From: SAR324 cluster bacterium
GTDB lineage: Bacteria > SAR324 > NAC60-12
Assembly (NCBI GenBank): GCA_016764995.1
Contig: JAESQU010000043.1
Location: 1-35,502 of the forward strand
Length of the DNA stretch: 35,502 bases
Reading direction: 5' to 3'
A program made the translations under genes and the position numbers. The notes under the pieces were generated by a model, which saw nothing but the letters and a program-made list of their open reading frames with translations, was not told the DNA's origin and searched no databases. This document shows positions 18,608 to 35,176 of the stretch, piece by piece. Within the stretch, counting starts at the first letter, position 1, and each line of letters starts with the position of its first letter.

Positions 18608-19615
18608 CTAAATCAAAGGCAGGCGGTCGGTAGGATTCTTTTCTAAAAGTTGTCGGTCATGAAAGTAACGGATTGTGGTATTGGCGGAAGCATGGCGCGC
18701 GTAGGACTGAACTTTCTGTAAAGGTTCGCCCAACTCCAGTGCAAGTGTGATTGCGGTGTGCCGCAGATAATGCGCTGAAATATCTAAACCGACTGCTTTT
18801 CCCAATCGTGAGACAATGTCATTGATTCCTTTTCCTGACATTTGATGGCCGAGTGTACGGAAACCGAGTGAAGGAAAAACATGTGGAGAATCGATGTCGC
18901 TGCCCTGGAGTAACGTCCACCAGTCAGTTAATTCTTGATACAATTCCTGTCTTAGTTTGATCCTTTGCTCTTTACCACTTTTCGTCTGGCGTAGAACGGC
19001 GACGTGAAACGCACCATCCTGTACGATATCATCCCAACGCAAATCCGCCGCTTCGCCACGTCGCGCCGCGGTTAGATAAAGAAATTTCAGTACAAGTCCA
19101 TTTCGAAATCGCAGCAACCGCGCGGTGCGTACGTCGTATTCCATAACCTGATTTGCCTCTATCATGGCATTGAGCTGCGAAACCTGGAGCGCCCCTTTAC
19201 TGGTTGCCGTGTCAATTTTTTCCGCACGGATGATTGAGGCTTTGAAAGGATTTTGTTTAAGATAGCCAAACTCTGTCAGCACCTTGCAGACTTTACGCAA
19301 GGCACTCATGGTTTGGTTTATTGTGGATGCTTTTTTGCCCTGGGATTTCAAGTGGTTTTTGAATTCGAGCATCCGGAGAGGTTCGAAGTTCTCCATTTCT
19401 CGCAGCTCCTTGAGCTCTGCCCATTCCTGCAAATTTCGGAACGCACGCGCATAAGCACGTTGAGTATTGGCCGCATATTCGCCAAAAACTAGATTCAAAG
19501 CCTCACCTGGAGCAAGAGATGGTTTTTTAACAGCAACGGCTCCTGCTTCAGGATTTAGCGTTTCAGAATTTTGTTCTTCCACAGAAATAATTTTCATTCT
19601 ACTGTTTTTATTCAA
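18608..19615 (-). CDS. tyrosine recombinase/integrase (Xer-like)
   Basis: A 335-residue phage-integrase-family protein. Residues about 40-125 form the SAM-like core-binding domain (YAANTQRAYARAFRNLQEW, KKASTINQTMSALRKV). The catalytic domain carries the expected residues: R185 in TAARRGEAADLRW, a lysine at 212/215 in RQTKSGKEQRIKL, H282 and R285 in AHYLRHTAIT, H308 in YARHAS and Y317 in TTIRYFHD. It should therefore be active. It cuts and rejoins DNA through a 3'-phosphotyrosine. A charged N-terminal extension of about 35 residues precedes the core, so initiation at ATG 19597 is also possible. Its start overlaps the stop of the upstream TonB-like gene by 4 bases. No att site, integron attC or phage genes were found nearby. 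Confidence 0.88.
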   Translation of the reverse strand: MNKNSRMKIISVEEQNSETLNPEAGAVAVKKPSLAPGEALNLVFGEYAANTQRAYARAFRNLQEWAELKELREMENFEPLRMLEFKNHLKSQGKKASTINQTMSALRKVCKVLTEFGYLKQNPFKASIIRAEKIDTATSKGALQVSQLNAMIEANQVMEYDVRTARLLRFRNGLVLKFLYLTAARRGEAADLRWDDIVQDGAFHVAVLRQTKSGKEQRIKLRQELYQELTDWWTLLQGSDIDSPHVFPSLGFRTLGHQMSGKGINDIVSRLGKAVGLDISAHYLRHTAITLALELGEPLQKVQSYARHASANTTIRYFHDRQLLEKNPTDRLPLI

Positions 19616-25050: not shown

Positions 25051-26193
25051 TTATTCGTTATTGTCCATGTTGTTCAAAAAACTTTCGTAATTATCTGGTG
25101 TGATAATATCGGATATGGCCTGCGGATAGTTGTTGATAAACGTTTTCGGAATCTTGGCTCGCCCCGAAGATTTCCACTTAAATTCCCAAGCACGAAGTTG
25201 TCCATCATACTCCTCCAGGTAGTCAATTTTCTGCTGTGCGTGTGTGCGCCAGAAATAGTGATTGGCCTTAATGTTTGCGTGGCTTCGGGACTTCATTCGT
25301 TCGGTGATGAGATAATTTTCCCAAAGCGCGCCTACATCATTACGCAATATGAGCGGATTAAAATTATTGATAATCGCGTTACGTATTCCATTGTCATAAA
25401 AATAAATTTTACGACTTTTCTTCAACTCATTTCTTAAATTACGGCTAAAAGTTCTAAGTCGGTAAATTATGAAAGATTTTTCCAACAATAGAATGTAACG
25501 CTCGACTGTGCTGTTATCAAGTCCTGTCATTCTAGCCAGTTCATTGTATGAGACCTGTTGACCCAATTGCAGTGCAATTGCCTGTAACAGTCGCTCCAGT
25601 CGATCTGGTTTCTTGATTTGTTCCCATGTCAGTATATCTTTATAAAGATAGCTGTCAGCGAGTTGCTGGAGACGTGCTTTACGATCTCCCGGATGAGTCA
25701 CTATTTCGGGATAACTTCCGAAAATCAGTCGATCTTCAAGCAATCTTCGTTCATCGATTGCGCCATAATGCGACTGCAGTTCTTGCCAGGAGAGGGGATA
25801 TAGATGAAATTCCCATTTTCGTCCTGTAAGCGGCTCGTTGATTCGATTGGCCAACTCAAACGCAGATGATCCAGAAGCAAAGACCTTCACACCCTCCAGA
25901 TTGTCCACAATCAACTTGATGGTCAAACCGATGTTTTCGATTCTTTGAGCTTCATCAATGACAATTATTTTGTGATGACCAATCAGATTTCTTAAGCGTG
26001 TAGATGTAGTGTTAGAAAGTTGCTCGCGTGTGTCCACCTCATCCCCGTTAAGCCATAGGGGGGGCGGATTTGTGTCCTTAAACAGAGTTTGCAATAATGT
26101 CGTCTTGCCCACCTGCCGCGGACCCACAAGGATAATAGCCTTGTTGTCATCCGCCCTTTGTAATATCAGAGGGGTAATATTTCTATAAATCAT
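25051..26193 (-). CDS. AAA_14/DUF4143 ATPase, second copy
   Basis: A 380-residue ATPase. The P-loop is LVGPRQVGKTTLLQTLF; Walker B is IIVIDEAQRIENIG; then ASGSSAFELANRINEPLTGRKWEFHLYPLSW. The C-terminal DUF4143 domain shows YNELARMTGLDNSTVERYILLLEKSFIIYRLRTF and a nuclease-like core (HAQQKIDYLEEYDGQLRAWEFKWKSS). It is clearly in the same family as 17248-18459 but only distantly similar, so the two were acquired separately rather than duplicated locally. An imperfect inverted repeat (AACCCAAAA and TTTTTGGTT, 26200-26230) lies just before the start, similar in position to the one at the other copy. Biological role unknown. Confidence 0.87.
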   Translation of the reverse strand: MIYRNITPLILQRADDNKAIILVGPRQVGKTTLLQTLFKDTNPPPLWLNGDEVDTREQLSNTTSTRLRNLIGHHKIIVIDEAQRIENIGLTIKLIVDNLEGVKVFASGSSAFELANRINEPLTGRKWEFHLYPLSWQELQSHYGAIDERRLLEDRLIFGSYPEIVTHPGDRKARLQQLADSYLYKDILTWEQIKKPDRLERLLQAIALQLGQQVSYNELARMTGLDNSTVERYILLLEKSFIIYRLRTFSRNLRNELKKSRKIYFYDNGIRNAIINNFNPLILRNDVGALWENYLITERMKSRSHANIKANHYFWRTHAQQKIDYLEEYDGQLRAWEFKWKSSGRAKIPKTFINNYPQAISDIITPDNYESFLNNMDNNE

Positions 26194-30780: not shown

Positions 30781-31962
30781 ATGAAATGTCTAAAATGCGG
30801 ATGGTCCAATTCAGACACCGCGGCATATTGTCAAAATTGCCATGCATATTTGGCGGAACCGCCCGGAATGGAATCGTTAAATACCTTCAAGGCACTAATT
30901 TTAAGTCTGTTATTCACCGGAATATTCTATCTGGTTTTTCCGATGCCCATAATTCGCAGCGAATATTGGCATCAATTGTTTTCCGGACGCATCTCAGAAA
31001 CAATTTTTGCACTTATACTTTGGTCTTTATTTTTGATTTTTTTCAAGTGGCATCAGTTTCGCCAACAGCATCGGGCCTATGTGGCTTTCAGGAATCAAGT
31101 TCTGCATGACTCTTTGTCAAAGGGAATTTACGTAAAGGATGTTGATGAACGGATTTTGGAAATCAGCCAGTTTATGCAGGAGCAAAAAGTAAAAAGATTT
31201 CAGGACAGCATCATTTTCCGGAGAGTGCGCCGTACCTTAAGGCATCTGAAAGCCATTCCAAAAAAGGAGGAAATAACTTCGATTTTGAATTACCAGGCAG
31301 AGATCGACCACAACCGTATGCAAAGCGGCTATGCACTTTTAAATGTGTTTATCTGGGCAATTCCAATTCTTGGATTTATCGGCACAGTTTTTGGAATTGG
31401 ACAATCAATCGGCGAATTTTCAGATTTCATTCGCAGTACCAGCGGTACAGATTTGAACACGCAAATGCGTTCAGCCCTCGGCGGAGTTACAAGCGGTTTG
31501 TCGGTCGCGTTCAGCACCACATTCATTGCGCTTGTCGGTGTTGTACCAATTATGATGCTCGCGTCTTCTTTGCGCAAAAATGAGGATGATTTGCTGCTCA
31601 GTGTCGAAGAATACTGTCTGGAAGATTTGCTGCCTAATTTACATGTACGTCCCGGAGATGATCTGCTGGATGACGCTGTTAGTGAACATCTGGAGCAAAT
31701 GGCGGAATTTTCCGAAAATTGGCGAAAACAAGTTTCACCTGTGCTTGAATCCGTGGAACAGCATTCAAGAGGTTTGGCTGCACAAGTTAGCGGATTGCAA
31801 CCTTTGATACAAAATTTCAGCGAAACGTTATTTGACGCGAAAGTTGAAATGAGTAACAGCAAAAAAGAAGAAAGTGAGAAAGAAAAGTCCGCTAAAATGA
31901 AGAAAGAAGTCATGCAGGACAAGCAAGATCAAACGGCCAACCACCCATCGTCAAATCAATGA
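30781..31962 (+). CDS. MotA/TolQ/ExbB-family channel protein with N-terminal zinc ribbon
   Basis: A 393-residue protein. It opens with a zinc ribbon (C3, C6, C17, C20). Two hydrophobic segments follow (about 36-57 and 72-90), then a basic cytoplasmic stretch, and a MotA/ExbB core with helices at about 184-206 (ALLNVFIWAIPILGFIGTVFGIG) and 238-260 (GLSVAFSTTFIALVGVVPIMM). The last 130 residues are a heptad-like helix ending in a highly charged tail (KKEESEKEKSAKMKKE). In this family pairs of proteins form ion-driven stators that do mechanical work across the envelope. The next gene, overlapping by 4 bases, encodes the short partner. The zinc ribbon is unusual for the family. The substrate and purpose are unknown. 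Confidence 0.8.
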   Translation: MKCLKCGWSNSDTAAYCQNCHAYLAEPPGMESLNTFKALILSLLFTGIFYLVFPMPIIRSEYWHQLFSGRISETIFALILWSLFLIFFKWHQFRQQHRAYVAFRNQVLHDSLSKGIYVKDVDERILEISQFMQEQKVKRFQDSIIFRRVRRTLRHLKAIPKKEEITSILNYQAEIDHNRMQSGYALLNVFIWAIPILGFIGTVFGIGQSIGEFSDFIRSTSGTDLNTQMRSALGGVTSGLSVAFSTTFIALVGVVPIMMLASSLRKNEDDLLLSVEEYCLEDLLPNLHVRPGDDLLDDAVSEHLEQMAEFSENWRKQVSPVLESVEQHSRGLAAQVSGLQPLIQNFSETLFDAKVEMSNSKKEESEKEKSAKMKKEVMQDKQDQTANHPSSNQ

Positions 31963-32483
31963 GGCATGTCTCTCAATCACCCAGAGTGACTCTTTTTCCA
32001 TTTCTGAGTGTCCTGCTCAGCACAATGGGGATATTGGCTTTTCTTTCCATCAGTTTTTTACTTGTAGTTCCACAAGACGCAGATTCACCCTCAACACCAA
32101 AACGCATACAGTTTGAATGGGTGGGCGCACCAGGTTATGTCAAACCAATTTTCATACGCTGTTACGCGGATCGTGTTGAATATTATAATATGTTTGAAAA
32201 TGAGGATTACAGCCTTAGTCTTGATGAATTGTTGGATCAACTTCAGGGAGAAAATCCGAAACTGCTTACGTATTTGTTTCAACTCTTGCAACTAAATATA
32301 AGAATAAAAAAACAGTTTGGAAAAACAGAATATTACCCACTTTTATTGGTATATCCTGAGGGTGTATTAACTTCAGAGTTATTGATGGTTGTGATTGAAA
32401 AGATAGGAGGATTGAATTTCGGACTGGAACCTATGCTGCCAAACTGGGAGGTTCCATACCAGGGACTAAAATCTGCGGGATGA
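31959..32483 (+). CDS. single-TM partner protein (ExbD/TolR/MotB-like position), unknown function
   Basis: A 174-residue protein with a short cytoplasmic N-terminus (RHVSQSPRVTLF), one membrane helix (about 13-37, PFLSVLLSTMGILAFLSISFLLVV) and a periplasmic domain of about 135 residues (RIQFEWVGAPGYVKPIFIRCYADRV, YYPLLLVYPEGVL). Topology and gene order match ExbD/TolR/MotB partners of the preceding channel protein. However, the helix lacks the protonatable aspartate that those partners use, and no peptidoglycan-binding motif is visible. Overlaps of 4 bases on both sides show tight translational coupling. It may be a divergent stator subunit or one that gates rather than conducts. Sequence family not recognised. 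Confidence 0.65.
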   Translation: MRHVSQSPRVTLFPFLSVLLSTMGILAFLSISFLLVVPQDADSPSTPKRIQFEWVGAPGYVKPIFIRCYADRVEYYNMFENEDYSLSLDELLDQLQGENPKLLTYLFQLLQLNIRIKKQFGKTEYYPLLLVYPEGVLTSELLMVVIEKIGGLNFGLEPMLPNWEVPYQGLKSAG

Positions 32484-35176
32484 TAAATGTTTGTATGAGA
32501 AACCGTATAGTATTTGGTCTATTTATTTTTTGGATATTTTGGTTTTCCTCAGGTTGCCAGGGATTTTTAATTCCCCCTCGAGATGCACAGGAAAGTAGAT
32601 TACGCAGTGCAATCCGGATTCATCCCGGACATGAATTAGGTTACGTCCGACTGGCCAAATATCTTGAAAGTCAGCGACGTTACACCGAAACTTTTTCGGT
32701 GCTCCGTATAGGCCAGAAGCAGATTCCGGATTCGATCGCACTCATCCGATTGGAGGGCGGGCTTTTTCAAGGTCTAGGTTATTTTAGTGATTCCGAAAAA
32801 TATTACTCCACGCAAATTCGCAAACATCCTGACGAAGCACTGCTTCATTTAGATCGTGCCCAACTATACTGGCGCATGGAAAAACCGGAGAGTGCCCTTA
32901 ATGATATACAAAAAGCACTCGCTTTAATGCCGGATTTATTTGAAGCTCTTTTTTTTAAAGGAGTGATTTTAGACCGGAAGACTGCTCCAAATCTTCCGGA
33001 TCATTCTGAACAGGCACTTGCCGCGTTTATTGCCGCCAGTGAAATCAATAACCGGAACCCCGAACTTTGGTTGCGAATTTCTGCTTTGTGGGAAAGACGC
33101 GCTGATATGAACAAGGCAAAACTGGCGATGCTGCGCGCAGTTGAGCTTTCTCCGGAATCAAAACTATACCTCCGTCGACTTACTGTTTTACAGGAAAAAG
33201 AGCTGGATCATGCAAGTCAGGAAAACTCAGTAAAAATTTCGGAAGCTCTTCGGCAAACTCTTTTACATATGCTCATATTGTTTCCGGAAAATAGCTGGGT
33301 ACAGGCGCATTATGGAAATTGGGCCTGGACACAGAATCAGTTTGTTTTGGCAGAAAAACACCTTGGACGCGCACTTGAATTAAACTCGAATTATCCCTGG
33401 GCCAGTTTCCGTTTGGGAGTTGTTTTCCTCTCCCAGGAAAAATGGGAGTCCGCGCTGTTCTCTTTTGAAGAAGGATTAAAAAATGATCCGAAAAACGAAT
33501 GGGCACTTCAGCAGGTCGGACACGTACTTGAAATGCTCGAAAGAAATGAAGAGGCAATTGTACGTTATGAATGGCTGATGAAAAATTTTCCGGTAAACCT
33601 GCTGGTCATCAATCGCCTGAACAGCTTGTATTGGAAAGAGTTTTTGTTTGAAAAAGGTGAGGATACTCTTTTACGTGGACTGGAAGAATTTCCGACAGAA
33701 ACCAAGTTAATTGAGAAACTGGTTTCTTACTATGAATCACACAGGCTTTTTGAAAAAGCCGCAAATGTTTTGTCGTCCTTTGTTCAGTTGGAACCCAACA
33801 ATTCCGCTGCGCTTGCTAAAATAGGTTATTATGAAAATAACTTAAAACGACCAGAAAAAGCCTTGATTTGGTTTGAAAAAGCGTTGGCTGTTTCACCTGA
33901 TTTTGAATGGGCACATATTCAAAAAATTGGTTTACTACTGAAAACAGAAAATGTAGAAAAAGCGGAAAAAGAACTTAAAAACTTCCTCAAGCAAAAACCT
34001 GATTCTGAATGGGCACTCCTCGAGTTATCCCAACTGAAATTGAAACAGGAGCAATTTTCAGAGGCGGAGGACTTACTCAATAAAGGTCTCGAACTTCACA
34101 AAGATTCCCCGGGCTTATTGCAAACTCAAGGTCGTTTGTACAAACTGCAGGAACGTTGGCAGGAGGCGGAACAAGTTTTTTTAAAACTGGTGAAATTGCG
34201 TCCAAATAATTCTATGCTGCTGACACATTTGGGATTTACTCAATGGAAATTGAACAAAATTGAAGAAGCACGGCTGAACATAACACAAGCGCTGTATGAA
34301 AATCCCGGCAGTCTCTGGGCCTGGAATCTCCATTTGCTTTTGCAGCCTGAAGTTCAACAGCGCCGCTGGATCGGTGAAGAACTTTCTGTGCTGATCCCTG
34401 TTTTAAAAGCACTTGTGAGTCAAACTCCTGATAAAGCCTGGCAGAAAATCACTGCGGTTCGAACCGATCCTTTTACTCGGCAGGTTTTGAAAAATTTACA
34501 CTACTTGTTAGAAGGCGCTCCGGCAGAAATTATCATGGAACCACAGGATTTGACATCAAAACATCTTCCACCATGGATGCATGAACAGTGGGGCTACTTT
34601 CATGAAATGCTGGGTAATAGAGAGTTGGCGGCAAAACATTTTGAAGTCGTTTCAAAAGCACTTCCGGACAACGCCTGGATTCATGCCCGTTTGGGATGGG
34701 TCAATGAGAGACTGGAAAATTTTGAAAAAAGCCGTAAGCACTACAGCAAATTTTTACAGAAACATCCTCAGGCGTTTGATGTCAGTTTTCGCCTGGCCAA
34801 CATTCAAACTTTATTAGGCAACGAAGCCGCAACTATTGAGCTTTATGAAAATATAATTGCTATGCGTCCAGACGACGATTTGGTACTGAACAACCTCGCC
34901 TGGATCTATCTAACGGCGCAAGACAGGCCGTTGCGTAATATTGAGAAGGGTATGGGCTTAGCCCAAAAATCGGTGGAACTGTTGCCTACAATAGATAATT
35001 TAGATACTTTGGCCGAAGCCTATTTTCAGTCCGGTGAAATAAAGAAAGCGATTGAGATTATCCGTAAGGCAGCCAGTGATGTCGATTATCCTCCTAAACG
35101 TCATTCCTATTTGCGCAAGCAGTTGCTCCGTTTCCGCAAAGGCGATACTGACGCAAACCCTCCGACTTTATCATGA
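32480..35176 (+). CDS. large TPR-repeat lipoprotein
   Basis: An 898-residue protein. A signal peptide with a lipobox (FSSGC, C26) predicts a lipid-anchored envelope protein. Nearly the whole mature chain is tetratricopeptide repeats, recognisable by repeated W-L/A-G-Y-F-A-P spacing, for example YFSDSEKYYSTQIRKHPDEALLHL, ALNDIQKALALMPDLFEALF, KPEKALIWFEKALAVSP-like units and NLAWIYLTAQDRPLRN near the end; twenty or more units could fit. ATG 32480 overlaps the previous stop by 4 bases; ATG 32495 would give a cleaner signal peptide. As third gene of the stator-like unit it may be the load or scaffold on which the channel complex acts. No enzyme domain is visible. Confidence 0.8.
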   Translation: MINVCMRNRIVFGLFIFWIFWFSSGCQGFLIPPRDAQESRLRSAIRIHPGHELGYVRLAKYLESQRRYTETFSVLRIGQKQIPDSIALIRLEGGLFQGLGYFSDSEKYYSTQIRKHPDEALLHLDRAQLYWRMEKPESALNDIQKALALMPDLFEALFFKGVILDRKTAPNLPDHSEQALAAFIAASEINNRNPELWLRISALWERRADMNKAKLAMLRAVELSPESKLYLRRLTVLQEKELDHASQENSVKISEALRQTLLHMLILFPENSWVQAHYGNWAWTQNQFVLAEKHLGRALELNSNYPWASFRLGVVFLSQEKWESALFSFEEGLKNDPKNEWALQQVGHVLEMLERNEEAIVRYEWLMKNFPVNLLVINRLNSLYWKEFLFEKGEDTLLRGLEEFPTETKLIEKLVSYYESHRLFEKAANVLSSFVQLEPNNSAALAKIGYYENNLKRPEKALIWFEKALAVSPDFEWAHIQKIGLLLKTENVEKAEKELKNFLKQKPDSEWALLELSQLKLKQEQFSEAEDLLNKGLELHKDSPGLLQTQGRLYKLQERWQEAEQVFLKLVKLRPNNSMLLTHLGFTQWKLNKIEEARLNITQALYENPGSLWAWNLHLLLQPEVQQRRWIGEELSVLIPVLKALVSQTPDKAWQKITAVRTDPFTRQVLKNLHYLLEGAPAEIIMEPQDLTSKHLPPWMHEQWGYFHEMLGNRELAAKHFEVVSKALPDNAWIHARLGWVNERLENFEKSRKHYSKFLQKHPQAFDVSFRLANIQTLLGNEAATIELYENIIAMRPDDDLVLNNLAWIYLTAQDRPLRNIEKGMGLAQKSVELLPTIDNLDTLAEAYFQSGEIKKAIEIIRKAASDVDYPPKRHSYLRKQLLRFRKGDTDANPPTLS

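Follow-up and report, generated by a model that had tools for sequence, protein, structure and literature searches.

The locus at 30781-35176 of the window (the whole stretch of DNA analysed, 35,502 nucleotides, which is an entire contig of a 2.65-Mb, 85% complete SAR324 MAG) encodes an ExbB-type channel subunit followed by a single-TM partner of 174 amino acids, which lacks the proton-carrying aspartate and has an Asp-bearing paralogue on a different contig of the same genome. These proteins probably form a 5:2-type ion motor, with an ExbB ring around an axle that would be a heterodimer of the two paralogues, only one of which would carry the proton; the stoichiometry, ion and function of the motor are what we infer here. 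A heterodimeric axle is favoured because the partner is found in the genome itself, the two axle genes co-occur and are adjacent elsewhere, the paralogy is full-length and places a serine on the aspartate, and the channel threonines are kept.

Three co-directional open reading frames are present where an earlier note on this DNA had placed them, and the features of the locus are the following:

30781-31962, + strand: MotA/TolQ/ExbB-family channel subunit of 393 amino acids with four TM segments (Pfam MotA_ExbB, channel threonines, hydropathy)
30787-30840, + strand: N-terminal zinc ribbon of the ExbB protein, CxxC-x10-CxxC (Zn_Ribbon_1, E 6e-5; family conservation)
31959-32483, + strand: putative aspartate-less ExbD-like axle subunit of 174 amino acids (AF2 model, family alignments, paralogy to the Asp-bearing subunit)
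31995-32066, + strand: TM helix, residues 13-36 of the aspartate-less subunit (AF2 helix; invariant LFPFL and Gly24)
32007-32009, + strand: Ser17 codon, at the position of the Asp in the paralogue and in ExbD (hhalign registers; S, A or T in strong relatives)
32480-35176 (or from 32495), + strand: TPR-repeat lipoprotein of 898 amino acids, accessory in two genera (TPR families, lipobox-like motif, distribution)

The three genes had been described as joined by 4-base overlaps, which is true for the first junction, an ATGA overlap at 31959-31962. An ATGA can also be read at the second (32480-32483), but this overlap is doubtful, as the start in several relatives corresponds to a later ATG at 32495, about 12 bases downstream. 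Promoter and terminator scans gave no excess over shuffled sequences, and a search of a plasmid collection gave no match. Elsewhere in the window, an AAA_14/DUF4143 ATPase (25051-26193, - strand) and a phage-type integrase (18608-19615, - strand) flank an ABC-transporter cluster, and the region around it is possibly mobile or variable.

The product of the first gene is, as the earlier note had it, a channel-type protein with an N-terminal zinc ribbon. It matches PF01618 (MotA_ExbB) over residues 145-276 with an E-value of 7.5e-12 and 45.6 bits against a cut-off of 22.9, and hydropathy analysis places its four hydrophobic segments at about residues 33-59, 69-93, 182-211 and 236-266. The Zn_Ribbon_1 match covers residues 2-22 and lies slightly below the family cut-off, and the CxxC-x10-CxxC pattern is kept in all 19 full-length ExbB relatives of SAR324 family f1. 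Zinc ribbons are also found in several ExbBs of Planctomycetota and Hydrogenedentota and are absent from those of SAR324 family f2; the ribbon is a variable part of the system across lineages, and with a MotA-like four-TM topology it would be cytoplasmic.

With regard to the channel itself, the conserved threonines of the last two TM segments are present, one in GFIGT and one in AFSTT, and AFSTT lies opposite ALLATA of E. coli ExbB in the alignment. The motifs GF[IL]GT and AF[D/N/S/E]TT are kept across the ExbB family, the second being aligned with the channel threonine of both E. coli ExbB and TolQ. In many non-SAR324 ExbBs of this family the last TM segment contains an acidic residue (AFDTT), at a position where SAR324 has N or S; a ring of the AFDTT type would place five acidic residues near one axle. 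In the ExbB tree, E. coli ExbB and TolQ and the TolQ of the genome itself lie together on a long separate branch, and the tree does not resolve a single from a repeated loss of the aspartate.

The 174-amino-acid protein has one TM helix at residues 13-36 in an AF2 model with a mean pLDDT of 81, and residues 9-38 do not contain any D or E, so that an aspartate elsewhere in the helix is ruled out and the description of this protein as a single-TM partner without the proton-carrying residue stands. The position of that residue, at the start of the helix, is occupied by Ser17. The protein has no Pfam, NCBIfam or PADLOC family; PF02472 (ExbD/TolR) gave no match up to an E-value of 10, and no OmpA-like peptidoglycan-binding domain was found in the Pfam search. 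After the helix, the modelled strands and helices follow a TolR-like order as judged by eye, and Foldseek searches of PDB with the models of both axle proteins gave no match at E <= 1e-3. The LFPFL of the motif LFPFL[S/A]VL and a glycine, Gly24, are invariant in the aligned sets of the family.

The reading frame is not a chance one: 15 more species of the genus have it at 67-87% identity, and its relatives can be recognised in other families and phyla. The protein is present in 37 of the 145 genomes searched, which include these 15 species, most of family f1 and 10 of 10 sampled genomes of family f2, and the closest relatives with a name are SAR324 cluster MAGs. A contig labelled Actinomycetota (L121), probably from SAR324 and mis-binned, also contains a fragment with 62% identity to the protein.

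In family f2 and in three other genera of f1, the gene directly after that of the 174-amino-acid protein encodes another single-TM protein, with the motif LDSLVDIVSNNVGILIIL. A profile of this Asp-bearing family finds one copy in the genome of the window, on a different contig (G000:C201:40645-41262), where the sequence with the Asp is LDSLVDIISNNVG. The motif D...D...N..G is invariant in the aligned sets of the family, which, like the Asp-less one, is named by neither Pfam nor NCBIfam, and PF02472 gave no match to the Asp-bearing partner up to an E-value of 1. The two families align over their full length in hhalign (E 2.9e-6), and a broader set gives an E-value of 3e-11 with a probability of 97% over 170 columns. 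In these alignments the second Asp of LDSLVD, which is nearly invariant in the paralogue, stands opposite Ser17 of the window protein. When both families are compared with a profile of 16 ExbD/TolR proteins, the Asp-bearing one gives an E-value of 2e-4, with its switch Asp on the Asp of ExbD, and the Asp-less one an E-value of 0.008, which is not significant; its register is the same, with LFPFLSVL opposite ITPLIDVI. A direct profile link of the 174-amino-acid protein to ExbD was thus rejected, although the alignment is collinear. Since the Ser and Asp registers agree in the hhalign alignments, the proton-carrying aspartate, present at the start of the helix in the paralogue, is missing from the 174-amino-acid protein by substitution and not by misalignment.

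Among the Asp-less loci, the switch position is Ser in 49, Ala in 7 and Thr in 1, a count that is biased, as some loci were fetched with a pattern containing Ser, while the protein-based search and a second pattern do not need it. Every strong Asp-less relative carries one of S, A and T at this position, and more distant relatives have an Asp in both axle proteins. In three loci of the Planctomycetota sample (L209, L210 and L213) the first axle protein has an Asp at the switch (e.g. LFAFQDV) beside a second Asp-bearing protein; these pairs may be doubly charged ancestors or cousins of the Asp-less type. In Myxococcales loci L212 and L249 the second protein has Asn for the usual Asp, and neither helix has the canonical carboxylate. 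The wider family does not always have one Asp per motor, given the Asn in one Myxococcota pair and the Asp in both proteins of the distant relatives.

Both axle genes are present in 35 of the 145 genomes, the Asp-less gene only in 2, the Asp-bearing gene only in 7 and neither in 101, including 11 genomes of the same class. The Fisher p-value of 3e-24 for this co-occurrence is overstated because the relatives share ancestry. Several of the exceptions are incomplete MAGs, and one genome (G141) has both genes adjacent by profile search. In the genus of the window the two axle genes are unlinked, and the ExbB gene lies beside the Asp-less gene only. The order ExbB, Asp-less, Asp-bearing is found in family f2 and three f1 genera, as well as in Planctomycetota, Myxococcota, Hydrogenedentota and WOR-3, so that homologues of the 174-amino-acid protein have an ExbB gene upstream and the Asp-bearing paralogue downstream in other genera, in the sister family and in other phyla.

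A contig scan retrieved relatives from records labelled Delongbacteria, Hydrogenedentota, Myxococcales, WOR-3 and Planctomycetota, and the Asp-bearing family is also present in all eight such other-phylum genomes tested. In a sample of 149 Planctomycetota-centred genomes the Asp-less profile matches 18; the ExbB gene is adjacent in 14 of 14 strong loci and the Asp-bearing gene in 12, with no Asp partner detectable nearby in the other two. Similarly, 8 of 141 genomes sampled from the phylum of the Myxococcales record match, all eight with ExbB upstream and a second axle gene downstream. Of 10 genomes of family f2, 8 have fliP (and fliQ) of the flagellar export operon just upstream of the motor genes (L122-L124, L127-L129, L131 and L132), and fliN, fliP and fliQ were confirmed in one locus. 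In one genus (L038, 9786-12662), TolB-like and TonB/TolA-like genes are found beside the ExbB/Asp-less pair.

The third gene of the window encodes a TPR lipoprotein, in agreement with its earlier description, with 12 TPR_14 stretches in Pfam and a lipobox-like SSGC at the N-terminus, similar motifs being present in the 13 relatives examined. All three genes are found together in 15 loci of two genera, and contig ends truncate a further two loci; the trio is therefore conserved beyond this genome, and the possibility that it is unique to it was rejected. Other genera keep the ExbB and 174-amino-acid genes and do not have the lipoprotein gene, which was demoted from a core part to an accessory one and is a lineage-specific add-on. 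The earlier note had suggested that the trio could be a new envelope machine; the channel, the Asp-less partner and the lipoprotein stand as its parts, but the set is not self-contained, as the Asp-bearing paralogue is encoded on C201 and its gene adjoins that of the 174-amino-acid protein in other genera and phyla. On C201, a gene for a TPR protein with no signal peptide and a long acidic insert lies directly upstream of the Asp-bearing gene (L140, 9299-11209, G000:C201), an arrangement common to several related f1 genera. TPR-like genes, recognised by eye, are also found near the motor genes in f2, Delongbacteria and WOR-3.

The separation of the two axle genes in the window genus, with the Asp-bearing gene beside a TPR gene on another contig, together with the other ExbB/TolQ-type genes of the genome, would also suit an Asp-less homodimer in the ExbB ring, as a non-conducting scaffold or as a channel working via other polar residues (Ser17 and the ring threonines), with the Asp paralogue joining another ExbB. 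Such a homodimer seems unlikely, given the tight co-occurrence of the two axle genes and the single ExbB gene followed by both of them in f2, Planctomycetota and Myxococcota. The position of the f2 genes downstream of fliP and the presence of MotAB in the genome would instead suit a flagellum-associated motor or regulator, that is, an auxiliary stator or stator modulator and not an envelope machine. This too is improbable: no flagellar genes adjoin the locus in the window genus or in the Planctomycetota loci examined, the operon neighbours vary by lineage, and the MotB-like OmpA domain is absent. Of the two, an envelope force transducer is preferred to a flagellar accessory, though with low confidence.

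The MotA_ExbB domain, the best NCBIfam match of the channel protein (TolQ, far below the cut-off) and the TolB-like and TonB/TolA-like neighbours in one genus would agree with a divergent SAR324 Tol or Ton system. The canonical pal-tolQ-tolR of the genome itself (with the Asp), the lack of any ExbD model match for the axle proteins, the separate branch of E. coli ExbB and TolQ and of its own TolQ, and the absence of standard TolA/TonB partners beside ExbB in most genera make it very unlikely, and a canonical Tol or Ton system was rejected, with pal-tolQ-tolR encoded elsewhere in the genome.

In the heterodimeric motor that is preferred here, the window ExbB would form a MotA/TolQ-like ring around two single-TM axle proteins, the 174-amino-acid protein (Ser17) and the C201 protein (Asp) sharing one pore, probably as 5:1:1. 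Only the Asp-bearing helix would bind a proton, and with a single Asp the ion-binding steps per turn would number about five instead of ten. The periplasmic domains may pass force or rotation outward, the receiver in the window genus probably being the TPR lipoprotein at the outer membrane, while docking or regulation of the ring may be the role of the cytoplasmic zinc ribbon and of the TPR protein without a signal peptide. In models of the 5:2 motors the axle carries a pair of equivalent aspartates. A broader proposal, which is held tentatively and with a slight leaning against it, is that of a widespread, unnamed class of ion-driven motors whose axle is an obligate heterodimer (5:1:1) with only one proton-carrying residue, in which each ion would drive a step of about 72 degrees rather than 36. 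If true, the Mot/Exb motor would have a naturally occurring half-stroke version, and a natural one-Asp system across several phyla would make the sufficiency of one proton site directly testable. Furthermore, an axle pair with recognisable motifs offers an annotation for unnamed proteins of SAR324, Planctomycetota and Myxococcota.

The earlier statement that the set fits no Exb, Tol, Mot or Zorya operon is borne out. As judged from the sequences, the genome has pal-tolQ-tolR and two MotAB pairs elsewhere, so the window system is an additional one. It shares with ExbBD and TolQR, the 5:2 motors of Ton and Tol, the MotA/ExbB-domain channel with conserved threonines in GxxGT and in the last TM segment, a single-TM partner with a predicted small periplasmic domain and the register of ITPLIDVI of ExbD with LFPFLSVL; it differs in having two axle genes and not one, one of them without the Asp, an ExbB with four TM segments and a zinc ribbon, and axle proteins that PF02472 does not recognise. 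Because it has neither the Asp nor a PF02472 match, the 174-amino-acid protein is not classed as a member of ExbD/TolR. The flagellar stator MotAB also has a four-TM channel subunit, but the window partner has no OmpA domain. Zorya was rejected, since the channel subunit is only weakly similar to ZorA (PADLOC, E 2.6e-5), the 174-amino-acid partner has no PADLOC match, and the TPR gene has only weak, repeat-type ones.

In MotAB and ExbBD, two axle helices lie inside the pentamer, with the Asp as proton carrier (PMC9389320). A search of an open-access literature library gave no account of an axle pair in which one member has the Asp and the other lacks it. Among systems with two unlike axle proteins, AglRQS and the TolQ-linked TPH-vWA pairs come closest. 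The latter are non-identical axle proteins encoded next to a TolQ-like gene, with vWA domains and one Asp per monomer (PMC12204202), whereas in the window system no vWA domain was found and the Asp is in one partner only. AglRQS, of Myxococcus gliding motility, likewise has a single MotA-type protein and two MotB/ExbD-type ones that differ from each other; compared by description, AglQ and AglS both have the conserved aspartate (PMC9389320), while one partner of the window system has Ser.
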